Source of the DNA: Ahaetulla prasina
Lineage: Eukaryota > Chordata > Lepidosauria > Squamata > Colubridae
Assembly (NCBI RefSeq): GCF_028640845.1
Contig: NC_080539.1
Location: 193,325,436-193,389,435 of the forward strand
Reading direction: 5' to 3'
DNA: 64,000 bases
A program made the translations under genes and the position numbers. Within the stretch, counting starts at the first letter, position 1; the number at the start of each line of letters is the position of its first letter. This document shows positions 9,268 through 62,210 of the stretch, piece by piece. The notes beneath the pieces were generated by a model, which saw nothing but the letters and a program-made list of their open reading frames with translations, was not told the DNA's origin and did no database searches.

Positions 9268-10550
9268 CTTTTGCCTTAGAGGTGATCACCGAACACCTAG
9301 AAGCAAACAAAATAATAACCAAAAGCCAACATGGGTTTGTCAAAAACAGATCATGCCAGACTAATCTTATTGCATTCTTTGACAAAGTGACAAAATTAGT
9401 GGACCAGAGGAATGCTGTCGATATAATTTACTTGGACTTCAGTAAAGCATTTGATGAAGTAGACCATAATCTACTACTAGATAAAGTAGAAAAATGTGGG
9501 TTAGACAGCACCACCACCAGATGGATTCGTAACTGGCTGACCAACCGCACTCAACGTGTAGTCCTCAATGGAACTACATCCACATGGAGGGAAGTATGCA
9601 GTGGAGTACCCCAAGGCTCTGTTTTAGGCCCAGTACTCTTCAACATCTTCATCAATGACTTGGACGAGGGGATAGATGGGGAACTCATCAAATTTGCAGA
9701 TGACACCAAGCTGGCAGGAATAGCCAACACTCCAGAAGATAGGCTCAAGATACAGAAAGATCTTGACAGACTTGAACATTGGGCACTATCTAACAAAATG
9801 ATATTCAACAGTAAAAAAAGTAAGATTCTACATTTAGGCCAAAAAAACAAAATGCACAGGTACCGGATATGTGGTACCTTGCTCAATAGCAAAGTGAGAG
9901 AGATCTTGGAGTCCTAGTGGACAACCATTTAGATATGAGCCAGCAGTGTGCAGCAGCTGCCAAAAAAGCCAACACAGTTCTGGGCTGCATAAACAGAGGG
10001 ATAGAATCAAGATCACGTGAAGTGTTAATACCACTTTATAATGCCTTGGTAAGGCCACACTTGGAATATTGCATTCAGTTTTGGTCGCCACGATGTAAAA
10101 AGGATGTTGAGACTCTAGAAAGAGTGCAGAGAAGAGCAACAAAGATGATTAGGGGACTGGAGGCTAAAACATATGAAGAACGGTTGCAGGAACTGGGTAT
10201 GTCTAGTTTAATGAAAAGAAGGACTAGGGGAGACATGATAGCAGTGTTCCAATATCTCAGGGGTTGCCACAAAGAAGAGGGAGTCAGGCTGTTCTCCAAA
10301 GCACCTGAGGGTAGAACAAGAAGCAATGGGTGGAAACTGATCAAGGAGAGAAGCAACTTAGAACTAAGGAGAAATTTCCTGACAGTTAGAACAATTAATC
10401 AGTGGAACAACTTGCCTGCAGAAGTTGTAAATGCTCCAACACTGGAAATTTTTAAGAAAATGTTGGATAGCCATTTGTCTGAAATGGTGTAGGGTTTCCT
10501 GCCTGGGCAGGGGGTTGGACTAGAAGACCTCCAAGGTCCCTTCCAACTCT
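9268..10550 (+). mobile_element. CR1/L3-type LINE, 5' truncated, best-preserved copy
   Basis: The copy starts inside the reverse-transcriptase domain and runs to the family 3' UTR and a (TTA)n tail. It is the least decayed CR1 here: one frame covers 9282-9917 and a second covers 9917-10492, with only one break between them. At the 5' junction a 19-bp segment, TTTTGCCTTAGAGGTGATC, is repeated in tandem (about 9250-9287). Confidence 0.95.
9282..10492 (+). pseudogene. CR1 reverse-transcriptase ORF, one frameshift
   Basis: This is the C-terminal two thirds of a non-LTR reverse transcriptase, which copies the LINE RNA at a nicked target. Motifs seen in order are GFVKNRSCQTNL, YLDFSKAFDEVDH (first catalytic Asp), [28 protein letters not shown] (the ADD pair, equivalent to YxDD) and LHLGQKNK. 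A small deletion near 9885-9905 shifts the frame. The second part then carries the thumb and C-terminal region ([30 protein letters not shown]) and ends in a stop at 10492. The endonuclease domain is absent through 5' truncation. Confidence 0.9.
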
Positions 10551-18846: not shown

Positions 18847-20138
18847 CAGTGATGGCTAACCTTTTCAGCACCGTGCCGAAAGCATGTGTGTGTGCGTGTG
18901 AAAGTGTGCATGTGCATGCATATCCATAATACAATACGTGTGTGACCCCCCCATGCCCCTACACATGTGTGCATGATCCCCTCACGTACGCCCCGCCCCA
19001 CCCCCACGCATGCATTCAGAAACCCCATGAGCCCCTCCCCTCGTGCAGGCATGTGCTACCCCACGCATACACGTATGGGTTGTGTGCACCCCACCACCAT
19101 GCATGTATGCGACCCCGTGCATGCACGCACGATCCCACGCATGCACAACCTGCCCCTGACGCATGCCCGCAACCCTCACATGTGTGCCCCCCATGCATGC
19201 ACAAGCGTCTCCTGTATGAGCCTCACCCCCGCACATGAATGGAAAAAAATGGCAGATTTTAATGGTGTAGTCAATGGAAATGTCGATTATAGAACGCAAA
19301 AGACGATGAAACAAGTAGGAAAATCCTTCCCAAATCCTTCTTTAGGGTGAAATCCTTCTTTAGAAAGAAATAGACAATATACTTTTTATTCAAACAGACA
19401 CTTATCATGGTCCAGAATAGATATGATATGGATGACAATGAAATTGACTCTTAACATTCAAGAAATTGACATAGAAACCAGCACCTGGTCGGATCATAAC
19501 CCTATAACAATGAAATGGAAAGGACAAAGGAAAAGAACTAGATGGACTTTACATACTACAATACTAAAAGATAAGGAATTTGTACAGAAAATGGAGAAGG
19601 AGTTGGCTTTCTTCTTTAAGGAAAACAAAAAAGAAGATACAACAATACAAAATTGCTGGGATACAATGAAGGCCTATGCAAGAGGTCTAATGATAGATTA
19701 TATAAGGAAAAGAAATGCAAAGAAAAGGCAAGCTCATAAAACACTAGAAACCTGCTACAAGAAACTTGAGGAAGACTTACAGAAATTTCCAGATGAAAAA
19801 GACATTAAAATGAAAATGGAATTAATTAAACATAAAATGGGTTTAATCGAAAAAGAAGAACTAGCACAGAAAATTAGAGGTGGGAAACAGAATTACTTTA
19901 AAAATGCTAATAAACCGGGTAGGTGGTTAGTTTACAAATTGAAAAAAGAGAAAGAATCTCGGAAAATACTACGATTAGTGGATAATCAAGGTCAGGTGAG
20001 ATATGGGAACAAGGAGGGAAGAAACCTGAAAACCAGCTGGCTGGCGGAAGGTATGCATGCACGTGTAGTAGAGCTGTGCTGGGACAACAGCTTGCGTGCC
20101 CTCAAGTGGCACCCCATCGCATAGGTTCCCCATCGCAG
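18847..20138. mobile_element. hAT-type element carrying an L1 fragment
   Basis: The left end CAGTGATGGCTAACCTTTTC and the right end AGGTTCCCCATCGCAG are imperfect inverted repeats. The 8-bp flanks TCCTATAT (18839-18846) and CCCTCTAT (20139-20146) match at six positions and lie inside a CR1. The left interior (18880-19240) is rich in CACGCATGC-type alternating purine-pyrimidine sequence. The right interior includes AAAACCAGCTGGC and GTGCTGGGACAACAGC. About 19245-20020 in the middle is L1 sequence. There is no hAT transposase. Confidence 0.75.
19245..20020 (+). pseudogene. L1 ORF2 fragment (endonuclease end)
   Basis: The open frame from 19423 has the end of an apurinic endonuclease domain (IDMIWMT-like, then STWSDHNPITMKW with the SDH catalytic triad segment). 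It continues into the linker before the reverse transcriptase. Upstream, in another frame, is ADFNGVVNGNVDYR (the GDFN-type motif), so at least one frameshift lies between 19330 and 19423. Neither an L1 5' end nor a poly-A tail is present, and both ends lie inside the hAT element. Decayed. Confidence 0.8.
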
Positions 20139-47154: not shown

Positions 47155-47904
47155 TTTTAAAAAGAATCAAAGAAAATAATACAAATGAAAATTATATTTC
47201 TCACACTTACCACACATCTTGCCATGCCTAAAGTCTTTGTTTCTAAAGGACATTTACATATGCAAATACTGTATTCAGTGATAGAAGTGATAAATTACAG
47301 AAAAAGAAAATAATACGATATCTAAGTAGGTCCAATTGATACTTTCTGACGCTGGTTTTGTGATTTAAGCTAGTGTCCTTTGATTCCATGGTTCTCAGGA
47401 CAATTATTTTAACATTTAGCCATTTCTGGGGTTAGAATAAAAATTGTTGAAAGATTTTGGAATCTGAATTAAAAAACAAAACAAAAAACGAATTCCTTAA
47501 AAAAATATCACACTATTCAAAACATTTTAAAAAGAATCAAAGAAAATAATACAAATGAAAATTATATTTCTCACACTTACCACACATCTTGCCATGCCTA
47601 AAGTCTTTGTTTCTAAAGGACATTTACATATGCAAATACTGTATTCAGTGATAGAAGTGATAAATTACAGAAAAAGAAAATAATACGATATCTAAGTAGG
47701 TCCAATTGATACTTTCTGACGCTGGTTTTGTGATTTAAGCTAGTGTCCTTTGATTCCATGGTTCTCAGGACAATTATTTTAACATTTAGCCATTTCTGGG
47801 GTTAGAATAAAAATTGTTGAAAGATTTTGGAATCTGAATTAAAAAACAAAACAAAAAACGAATTCCTTAAAAAAATATCACACTATTCAAAACATTTTAA
47901 AAAG
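47155..47904. repeat. 370-bp tandem duplication
   Basis: Positions 47155-47524 and 47525-47894 read identically base for base as far as I can follow by eye. The 10-bp string TTTTAAAAAG recurs a third time at 47895-47904, so the units meet at a short homology. The unit is AT-rich, with no known repeat or open frame in it. It may be a very recent duplication or an assembly error. Confidence 0.95.
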
Positions 47905-49060: not shown

Positions 49061-49997
49061 AGCTTGGCAGTCCTACGGGCAGGAACTGTCCTGGGCCAAT
49101 GTCCCTGCCTCCTCATGGACCTGCTGCAGGACCCACTGGCAAAATGCTGCCTCAGCAGAAGGGTAAGAGTTAAGCCCAATGATGGACAACATGTCCATGT
49201 TGCCGCCCTACAAATCTGACAGTAGCCTGGGTAGCCCAGGCCGCCGTAATGGCCGCACTACGTGTGGAGTGTGCTGTTATCCCCTGAGGCAGCGGGAGAG
49301 CTTGAAGCTCATAAACACAGGCTATACATGACTTAAGCCAACACCCTACCATGGAAGGGGTCACCCTGTGGCCCAGAGTTGATGGCTGAAAGGAGACAAA
49401 CAGGGATTCAGTCTTCCTGAAGGAAGTGATCCTCGATTTGTAAATATGGAGGGCCCTCCTAATGTCCAGCATATGGCAGGTCTGCTCTAAGGCATGCCTA
49501 GGCCTTGGACAGAAATCCAGCAAGACCAGCTTTTGTGCTCAGTGAAACAAGGAGTTGACCTTTGGAAGGAAGTCAGGGTCCAGCTGCAGGACCACCCTGT
49601 TTGATCAAAAAATACACAGGTCCTTCCTCAAAGATAATGCCGCCAACACCAAAATCCATCTGGTCAACATGACGGCCACAAGGAAAGCAACCTTACATGA
49701 GAGGAAGTGACAGCTGGCCTCCCTCAAAGGTTCAAAAGGTGCCTTGGTAAGGGCCTGTAATACCCTGGTCAAGTCCCAGGTGGGATAGCAGTGCATTGTT
49801 GGAGGTCGCAAATTAGAAGCCTCTTGCAGAAAAACTTGCAACCTCGGATGGTGAGCAAGGGAGCCCCAGTCCCCAAAGGTCAAGACAGAGCCCAGGGCAG
49901 CAACCTGCCTATGCAAGGTGTTAGGGGAAAGCCCACATTCCATGCCCCCTTGTAAAAACTCCAACACCTCCACCACTGAGGCTGAAGTAGGGTCCAA
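49060..49997 (-). pseudogene. DIRS tyrosine recombinase, broken
   Basis: The core-binding part is intact at 49997-49605 (GLSPNTLHRQVAALGSVL, PTWDLTRVLQALTKAPFEPL, LSCKVAFLVA). After a stop, the region with LDPDFLPKV leads to the catalytic part at 49523-49170 (LDIRRALHIYKSR, LGHRVTP, GITAHSTRSAAITAAWATQATV). HSTR is the H-x-x-R box. Then the frame shifts: ICRAATW is found one frame over. The catalytic tyrosine expected soon after is not in a readable context (near 49170 the frame gives HHW). The enzyme integrates circular DIRS DNA. This copy cannot. Confidence 0.8.
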
Positions 49998-50111
49998 ATG
50001 TGGTGGCTGAAGATATCCACTGTCTACAAATCACCTCTAGGAACATTCTAGGGATAGGGATCGTATCTGCCGCATTTCCCATCTTCCTGTTTCCCAAAGT
50101 CAGTGGGAGGC

Positions 50112-50750
50112 TCAGGTAGAGTCTCTTCCCAAAAGGGCAGTAGCCACTGCCTTGGAGAGCAGTGGCTTGAGGAGGGCGGGGTTGAAAAGACACCAAAATT
50201 GTGGTCTGTCCACGGAGTCCTCCTCAAAATCGGAGAAGTCTCCCTCACCCTGGAACCACTCCGATTGGGAGTACCAGCTCTGGCCCGAATGTGCGGGCAA
50301 AACAGGCCCATAATAACATGCTCCCTCAGCATATAGCCCCAAAGGGTCCACATCCGAGTCAAGAGGAAAACTCGGATTGGTCAATTGTTGGTGCTGTCGG
50401 ATTTCTTCAGCAATCCCTCTCTTGATCGCTCGATCAATCCACTGCTCTTTGAAAGGAGGCATATCCTGCTCCTGCCACTCCTCTGGACAGAGCCCTGCTG
50501 CGGTGGGGGTAAATATCACTTCAGGAGTCTTACATGTGATCCCCAAGGAGCTAGGCCATTCTGGGTGGTCCACCAGGTCCTCAGGTGACCAGGTTGAAGC
50601 AGCTCCTGACTGGGAAACCTCCTGCGGTGCTTGCTGCAAAGCAATATCTGGGGAGTGGTGTACTGCGTGGCATTCTGCCCTCGTGTTAGTGGCATGGCCT
50701 TGTGTAAAGGCACCTGCAGAAGCCTTTGAACACTGTTTTTCCAAGGCCAC
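50112..50750 (-). pseudogene. DIRS gag-like frame
   Basis: A 212-residue open frame, proline/glutamine-rich at first and acidic near the end (GDFSDFEEDSVDRPQFW, FNPALLKPLLSK). The position upstream of the recombinase and the acidic-to-hydrophobic ending fit a DIRS gag-like ORF1. No zinc knuckle is visible. Assignment rests mainly on context. Confidence 0.5.
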
Positions 50751-59337: not shown

Positions 59338-59790
59338 ATTTAGTGTTAAAAAATAGTGTTGTAAAAGATCACTCTATACATTATTTCCATGTATGAAATT
59401 ATTATTGCACATTGAAAGATGCACTTCATTCTGAAATAAAGGAAAATGGGGGCGGGAGATTCTTCAAATGTGCAGAGTTGAAAACAGGGGTGGAATGTTT
59501 GACATTTTAGCTTTCCAATTATTTTATTACTGAAATGGAACTAAAACATACTTAGTTATCATTATAGCTGATGACTTTTAAAAGAAAACCTTTTGGGGAG
59601 GCTTAACAGAGAACCCCAAAAGTTTTCCTGTGCAATTCATGACCTTATTACATCTAGATGCTGAATGCATAGTGTATGTTTAAACAAAATTAAATAAAAA
59701 TGTATTAATATTAATATAGATATGAATCTGCATAGAAGCTGAAGAAACTAGAACATATACTCAGCTCATGCAAGAAATTCACATGAACTG

Positions 59791-61586
59791 GAGACGACTT
59801 CCGGTATCCAGCGGCAACGGACGTCTGGAAGGCTTCTCCTGCCTCCAGCGCCCGAATCCGGCCGCCGCCGAGGCCCTCAGGGGCCAGGTGTTCCGAAAAG
59901 GACACCTGCCGCAGACGGCTCGCCAGGGTCTCCCAGCCGACATACAGGACTGTGGGGACCCGATGCTGGCGCGTCCTAGGCTCGGCGGGGTTCGAGGCCA
60001 CAGGCGCGGCCATTATTTTGGTCGTGGCCTGGGCCGCTGTGCCCAGTGACACGGGGCATTGGATTTATAACTGCAGCAGCCTGGTGGTGAACAGGGCACG
60101 GAGAAGAATTGAGGAGGAGAAGGGAAGGAATATCGGTGGCGTGGTGGACTGCTCCGGTGCGGGGGTTTTTCTCCCCTGCGGTTGGAAGAACACGAGTTAT
60201 TCTGGAGAGGAGAACTTAAAATAAGAAGATTACCGGTTTTGTGGAGCTCTGGAGAAGAGGTGATGGAGAAATTTAGGAGGGAAGGTTTGAGGCCCCCTCC
60301 TTCTGGGGAACAGTGGTGGCGTCCAGCTTCCGCCTTCACTATGAGAATTTTGATGACATCACTTCCTTCGGCTTCCTGGTTGACTAACTGTACTCTGGAC
60401 TCGTTGCTCCTGTGAGTGCCCCTGGTGGATCCGGAGGAAATTACAAGGATACTGTGCCTGCCTGAGGATTTTGTATTTTTTTTCCTTAATGGCAAAGGTC
60501 AGAGACCAACTGCTGGAGAGATGGAGAGAATTTTGGAAAAGTTATCTAATATGGACAAGAAATTGATGAAATAAGAGCAGAAATTGTGACTATCCAAAAG
60601 GATTTAAAGGATACTCAACAAGTTTCAGCAGAAAACAAGCAGAAAGTGGAAGGTTTGAGGGTGAGATGCGGGGAGTGCAGAAAAGAGAGGAGACGACAGG
60701 CAATGCTGTGCTTGGACTACAGATGGATAAAATGTCTTATTTCCTTAGGTTTCAAAATTTGGAAGAAGTGGACCAAGAAGACTTGAGAGATGTTGTGACT
60801 AAATTGTTGGGAGAATTTCTTGGGAGAGGTGTTGATTTCATGAATTGGGATGTGGATCGAGTTTATAGAGTTAATTAGCAATATGCACGCACGCATGCAG
60901 TTCCCAGAGAGGTTCATGTCAAATTTGTGAGAAGAGAGACGAGAGATGAAATTCTTAGAAAACATAGGAGTGGGGCACTGATTTACAGGGGCAGGAGATA
61001 GCCATTCTGAGGCAGATTCCCAGACAGGTACGTGAAAAAGAAAGAAATATTATTTTTGTCAAGCAAATTGTACCAGAAGGAGTGGGCTTCAGATGGCTGA
61101 TGCCAGAGGATTGATGATTTTCCGGGAGGGCATTACGAAAAAATCAGTACAATTGCGGAGGCTACGGCCTATGTGGAGGAACACAAAGCCTTCCTGGAAT
61201 CAGATGACCCAGGAATTGAAGAAGGGAGGTTATAGATCATGGGGCTGAAGCGGCTGCCGCTGTTGCGGCCCTGGAGCTAGGTCAGGCTGAACCCAGAGTT
61301 CTGAGATCCAAAACTAGGAAGTGATAAAGATATTTGGGATTGTGTTGGTTTTCCTTATTCTCTTTTGTACGATATTCTGTTTATTCTTGACTCTTCTTTA
61401 TTACGTATTTAAAATTTGCAAACTTAGCTACTTCGTGTCACCTGCTTGCCTTATGGCTGTTGTATGTGTTAAAAAATTTGAGTAAAATTCTTATTTTAGA
61501 TAAGAAAAATGAAAATTTACCATACCTGATATGTATTTGTATAAACCTTTTTTGACTAATAAAAACTTTTTGAATAAAAAAAAAAA
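59791..61586 (+). mobile_element. short L1-derived element: 5' UTR, ORF1, 3' UTR, no ORF2
   Basis: The 19-bp flank AAGAAATTCACATGAACTG lies directly before (59772-59790) and directly after (61587-61605) the element. It has a GC-rich, CpG-containing 5' part (59791 to ~60480), a broken L1 ORF1 (60489 to ~61323), about 240 bp of 3' UTR and a poly-A tail after AATAAAAACTTTTTGAATAAA. Nothing of ORF2 is present between ORF1 and the 3' UTR. The layout is that of a 'half-L1' (HAL1-like) element, or of one internally deleted L1. Confidence 0.85.
60489..61323 (+). pseudogene. L1 ORF1 (RNA-binding chaperone), frameshifted
   Basis: L1 ORF1 protein coats L1 RNA as a coiled-coil trimer. A coiled-coil stretch (ERILEKLSNMDKKL, then TIQKDLKDTQQVSAENKQ) is followed by the RRM-like part (LRFQNLEEVDQEDLRDVV, WDVDRVYRVN) and the C-terminal domain (REVHVKFVRRETRDEILRKH, LRQIPRQVREKERN, GFRWLMPEGLM). 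It ends ALELGQAEPRVLRSKTRK and a stop. Frameshifts lie near 60565, 60660 and 60990, with others further on. TAG replaces a codon at about 60877. Each segment remains clear, so decay is moderate. Confidence 0.85.
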
Positions 61587-62210
61587 AAGAAATTCACATG
61601 AACTGATTATAAACAAAAATATCATACAGTTGCCAAAAAAGTTTACTGCAACATCTGTACAAATTATCATGTACCAGTAACCAAAAAATAGTGGAAGTAT
61701 AAAGTTGAAAAAGTAGTTAAAAATAAGCAGGTTAAAATATTGTGGGATTTCTTAATACAGACTGATAAAGTCTTGGTTCATAATACACCAGATATATCTG
61801 CAGTTGAAAAGAGGAATGTGGATAATTGATGTGGTGATTCCAGGGGAATAGCAGTGTAGAAGACAAAGAATTGGAGAAGGTCACAAATGATCAGGATCTG
61901 ACAATCAGAACTGAAATATTATGACATAAACTGGCCATGGTGATCCCAGGGGGCCATACCAAATACTCTTGGATAGCACTTCAAAAATCTGTACATTGAC
62001 AAACTGTCCATCTGTCAATTAAAAATTGCCACACTGCCTTTATCCACACATATACTACTACAATGATACATTGTAATATCCTAGATTCTTGGGAAGAACT
62101 CGCTAAAGAACAGCTAAAGAAATGGCAACTGTGACTTCACATTGTAATATGTAATAACAACAACAGCAACAACAATTTATATGCTAAGTCCCAGTAACCC
62201 TGGACAATTT

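Follow-up and report, generated by a model that had tools for sequence, protein, structure and literature searches.

The window analysed here, 64,000 nucleotides on C1 (193325436-193389435) of the Ahaetulla prasina assembly, carries toward its right end a 1.8-kb unit (59791-61586) made of a 5′ UTR, an L1 ORF1, a 3′ UTR of ~250 nt and a poly-A. An initial annotation had described it as an L1-derived element with ORF1 only, flanked by an exact 19-bp duplication. We found this duplication (AAGAAATTCACATGAACTG) on the forward strand at 59772..59790 and 61587..61605, flush with both ends of the element, an arrangement with a chance probability of about 9e-12. No second half-L1 copy was found within the 64-kb window.

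The 5′ UTR (59791..60520, + strand, 730 bp) was GC-rich, in agreement with the initial annotation, and also rich in CpG, with an observed/expected ratio of 0.69 (0.83 in its first 300 nt) vs 0.23 for the whole window. It is presumably an internal promoter. A ACTTCCGGT motif, which we take to be an ETS/GABP-type site, lay at 59797..59805 (+), 7 nt from the element start. It was the sole match in the window, with 0.09 expected and at least one match in 9 of 100 shuffles. An upstream start at 60489..60520 (+) was out of frame with ORF1 in the window copy; certain other copies read it in frame, with 281-residue frames (MAKGQRPTAGE...).

ORF1 (60521..61324, +), examined by alignment to an open protein, P0001, and through a structure model and structure match of the latter, comprises a coiled coil, an RRM, a C-terminal domain (CTD) and a tail. 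The earlier claim of an L1 ORF1 reaching its own stop held in that the gene was recognisable and its stop codon was found at 61322-61324; it did not hold for an open frame. Aligned over the 270 residues of P0001, the window copy was identical at 256 and substituted at 4, with 1 stop and 9 one-base frame breaks. The T-rich 3′ UTR (61325..61575, +), recognized from sequence and copy comparison, directly abuts the ORF1 stop. It is followed by a poly-A run (61576..61588, +), whose last bases are also the opening A's of the right duplication and which has an AATAAA located 12 nt upstream. As initially proposed, ORF2 was lacking between ORF1 and the poly-A, and the three longest forward frames after or across the ORF1 stop of the window copy gave no Pfam family at E 0.1.

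P0001 is named as Ahaetulla prasina LOC131191674. Its model (mean pLDDT 81.9) had a long helix at residues 2-72, an RRM, a C-terminal domain and a low-confidence tail at 235-270. The best matches in a structure search were human L1 ORF1p chains (top E 1.4e-9), and the predicted ORF1p has the L1 fold. Pfam Transposase_22 matched ORF1 only below the cut-off, and a PDB search with a profile built from 19 relatives reached human L1 ORF1p (E 7e-8). The element is L1-derived and carries an L1 ORF1. Among the 22 protein relatives, all named ones were squamate, and a further protein search added no new relatives. None were found in viral_contigs, genome_contigs, plasmids or phages, as expected for a vertebrate element. 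In a tree with the 22 relatives, the window element, P0001, P0002 and P0003 formed one clade (support 100/100), and the clade persisted once three more ORF1s, drawn from L1 loci in the A. prasina genome, had been added. P0002 and P0003 had full frames, with 60 and 53% identity to P0001. These squamate ORF1 trees, which held no mammalian sequence, support the earlier suggestion of an independent reptile half-LINE.

The whole A. prasina assembly (1,772,332,521 bases) was searched for further copies. The best 40 of 2,367 candidates, window included, were scored, and all 40 matched the element; the 39 others had 94-98% identity to the window copy, and 33 of the 40 were near full length (position ≤6 to ≥1781). 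In each of these 39 copies, fetched for their likeness to the window copy, the match covered the junction and ORF1 ran directly into the 3′ UTR. The match was single and uninterrupted in 37; L040 and L043, the latter with a variant 3′ end, gave two matches each. The initial annotation had set beforehand a common ORF1-to-3′-UTR junction in many copies as the mark of a family, and a single copy with the junction as evidence against it. A 34-mer reaching from the end of ORF1 into the first bases of the 3′ UTR had 2,197 places in the genome (≤3 mismatches), and its reversed control had none, in favour of the family.

Twenty regions sampled from 100 listed junction places, all on C1 and with zero mismatches, contained 27 matches. 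Of these, 25 spanned the junction and all 25 reached position ≥1785, so the junction led to the same 3′ end, as it did in the 16 open-ORF1 copies described below. Thirteen of the 25 started at position ≤3 and 12 later. The remaining two matches were 5′ pieces (positions 1-705 in L059 and 3-681 in L063). The half-L1 in L059 carries an inversion of its 5′ portion, as in twin priming. Pairs among the 40 closest copies diverged by 1.33% on average with gaps left out, a value that understates the spread of the family because 39 of them were chosen for likeness to the window copy. Seven of the 20 sampled ORF1s had 19-21 residue differences from P0001. Some half-L1s occurred as same-strand pairs 2.2-2.5 kb apart (C1:36039125/36041308, 50173057/50175516 and 57162058/57164357).

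In 33 of the 39 copies, exact direct repeats (≥11 bp) lay no more than a few bases from each end, and the other six gave none; in the second sample repeats of this length accompanied 16 of the 25 matches, one of them consisting mostly of A's. All 33 duplications in the first set were distinct, so tandem or segmental amplification was rejected. Around the 33 target sites there was a T at −2 in 20 and a T or C at −1 in 28, followed by A in 29, 29, 20 and 26 at +1 to +4. Part of the A bias stems from the neighbouring A tail; the T/C preference ahead of the nick does not. The duplications start at TY/AAAA, a motif like that of an L1-type endonuclease. The genome holds many copies without ORF2, in which ORF1 is joined to the 3′ UTR; they inserted independently at sites of the L1 type, and they carry poly-A and target duplications. 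An ORF2 with endonuclease and reverse transcriptase was found neither in the element nor in the copies examined.

Open and broken ORF1s were both encountered. None of the 39 best-matching copies had an ATG frame of 265 residues, and the window copy and all 59 other aligned ORF1s (39 + 20) had at least one frame break relative to P0001; L063 was scored with one break among the 20, yet was open from residue 11 in the P0001 search. In that search of the genome, 101 of the best 142 of 16,551 places had no stop and 41 had one (hand count), a share that describes the best-scoring places and not the whole family. Many of the 101 spanned all 270 residues, so that ORF1 is open in at least some copies. 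They included one group whose match extended 7 codons further (831 vs 810 bases) and another with an identity of about 96%. For 16 of the stop-free places we followed 441 bases from the end of ORF1; all 16 entered the same 3′ UTR (88-100% identity) and ended at the same 3′ end, with very variable A tails, some of few A's.

The frame breaks were nearly all deletions. The 40 rows including the window had 257 one-base losses, 16 two-base losses and no gains, the last events of L043 being artefacts of an aligned slice that ended early; the 20 sampled rows had 108, 28 and 2, respectively. Breaks fell at recurrent codons in both close and diverged copies, in mosaic combinations, and in 43 of 55 pairs of break sites each of the four possible combinations occurred, with P0001 taken to have no breaks. 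The published A. prasina assembly is Nanopore-based and polished with short reads (PMC9999515). Because the breaks are recurrent, nearly all deletional and mosaic, the simplest reading for such an assembly is that most are systematic Nanopore errors left by short-read polishing in repeats. Decay is less likely as their chief cause, given the dominance of losses, the shared codons and the mosaic combinations. Several observations count against assembly error: the breaks were correlated in blocks, the 39 copies were selected by likeness to a broken window copy, longer runs were only slightly more frequent near breaks (a level attained in 565 of 20,000 draws), and the CR1 copies in the window had 64 mismatches and only 6 one-base gaps. 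A stop at codon 120 recurred in copies at different sites and may be real. Real frame breaks would mean that many copies do not produce ORF1p.

Autonomous L1s were sought in the same genome. The genome-wide search for L1 ORF2 returned 10,206 candidates, of which 150 were scored. A stretch at about 19423-20121 of the window, presumably an L1 ORF2 fragment, had abundant genome relatives. Many of the ORF2 relatives crowded in a few zones, among them C1 183-191 Mb, C2 183-196 Mb and C4 65-90 Mb, which are perhaps pericentromeric. We fetched eight L1 loci (L068-L075), chosen for ORF2 likeness. Like the half-L1 they had an ORF1 homologue (25-48% identity over the matched pieces) and a poly-A, but their ORF1s belonged to other clades and, at the three borders read (L068, L070, L074), ORF2 began directly at the ORF1 stop or no more than about 10 nt from it, whereas the half-L1 has its tail of ~250 nt there. 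This was the comparison with same-species L1s that the initial annotation had called for. Five of the eight loci matched the half-L1 DNA, in part of ORF1 only and at 59-65%, and none matched its UTRs at E 0.01. Among the eight loci there was no ORF2-bearing parent with the 5′ UTR, ORF1 type or 3′ UTR of the half-L1. In L069 the 3′ end followed a G-rich tract, and the 14 nt before the A run were identical to those of the half-L1 (E 2 by sequence alone), a likeness that may serve only as a lead to the helper L1. L071 had a second, more divergent L1 (4764-7301, ORF1-like and ORF2-like frames) beside the first.

We are highly confident that the element belongs to a young, ORF2-less, L1-driven half-L1 family in the Asian vine snake. 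Each copy would be transcribed from its own CpG-rich 5′ UTR, here presumed to act as promoter, and open copies would encode a short L1 ORF1 protein with coiled coil, RRM, CTD and disordered tail, which should bind its own RNA in cis. The endonuclease and reverse transcriptase of an autonomous L1, a putative helper, would then copy the half-L1 RNA in trans into TT/AAAA-like sites. Mobilisation is presumably by L1 ORF2p, judging from the abundant L1 ORF2 and the endonuclease-like motif.

The anatomy of any one copy would also fit a lone L1 from which an internal deletion removed ORF2, either before insertion or afterwards, without any family. The 2,197 junction places, the 33 distinct target duplications among 39 copies and the 3′ UTR common to all 16 open-ORF1 copies refute this reading, to which we assign practically no probability. 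It is also very unlikely that the 250 nt past ORF1 represent an ordinary L1 spacer between ORF1 and ORF2, cut short by premature polyadenylation. The AATAAA before the A run would suit such an origin, but the near-immediate ORF2 at the three L1 borders speaks against the spacer, which the initial annotation had named as a way in which its proposal could fail, and the 25 sampled junction matches and the 16 open-ORF1 copies all share the same 3′ end, with no longer version seen.

The role of ORF1 within the family is less settled. We consider it somewhat probable that ORF1p is needed in cis. It is possible, if doubtful, that ORF1 is a passenger in an equally real family, decaying freely while autonomous ORF1p and ORF2p move the RNA in the manner of a SINE. 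SINEs move in trans with LINE enzymes and encode no protein; the half-L1 resembles them in being LINE-driven in trans and differs in encoding one. The breaks in all 59 other aligned ORF1s and the codon-120 stop at different sites would favour a passenger, as would the private changes in the 40 closest copies (34 nonsynonymous, 7 synonymous, 1 stop), which fit neutral decay after insertion. So would the pN/pS of 1.35 between the two subfamily majorities (40 rows vs 7 loci) over all codons, a ratio we distrust since all 25 nonsynonymous differences lie within codons 3-16, which look like a different N-terminus or a misalignment. Outside codons 1-16 the same majorities differed by 0 nonsynonymous and 4 synonymous changes, a small count at which constraint on ORF1 is hinted. 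Against a passenger there are also the 101 stop-free places among the best 142, the longer and the ~96% groups included, and, should these two belong to half-L1s, the full frames retained by P0002 and P0003 despite their divergence. Tentatively, and with rather low expectation, we further propose that the window element, P0001, P0002 and P0003 represent an old squamate ORF1-only lineage with a cis-selected ORF1, whose ORF2-bearing parent may have vanished from this genome and which another L1 clade would drive.

The mammalian HAL1s are L1 derivatives with ORF1 only and of several origins (PMC5753468, PMC5322556), with nearly 2,100 copies in the human genome (PMC5322556). HAL1s and the snake family are alike in being L1-derived, with ORF1 only, poly-A, target duplications and many copies, and presumably in depending on L1 (PMC5322556, PMC5753468). 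The snake family differs in its host, in having its own ORF1 clade among squamate sequences, and in that the sampled copies are little diverged and many ORF1s are open. No half-L1 in reptiles appeared in the titles and abstract openings of the literature matches listed. On all testable features the family is of the half-L1 kind, which supports its being a reptile counterpart of mammalian HAL1 and indicates that the half-L1 design also exists outside mammals. The mammalian HAL1s pose the question why an L1 parasite keeps ORF1; the snake family, which numbers about 2,200 junction copies and includes diverged subfamilies as well as many open ORF1s, makes it testable by dN/dS and a retrotransposition assay. 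Repeat annotation in snakes may score half-L1 copies as truncated L1s.

The window contained further repeats. A reverse transcriptase frame at 9282-10492 (RVT_1, E 7.8e-29), continued in another frame, presumably belongs to a CR1-like element, and pieces with 94-97% similarity to it lie on the opposite strand between 53215 and 55301. Two ORFs on the minus strand at 49605-50750 had no Pfam match; to us they resemble a DIRS-type tyrosine recombinase and its neighbour. The longest A or T run in the window was below 14 bases, which would fit homopolymer shortening in the assembly; a window without runs of at least 14 seems short of them for AT-rich vertebrate DNA. At 47155-47904 a 370-bp unit occurred about twice, head to tail and with 100% matches; it was duplicated either very recently in the genome or in the assembly.
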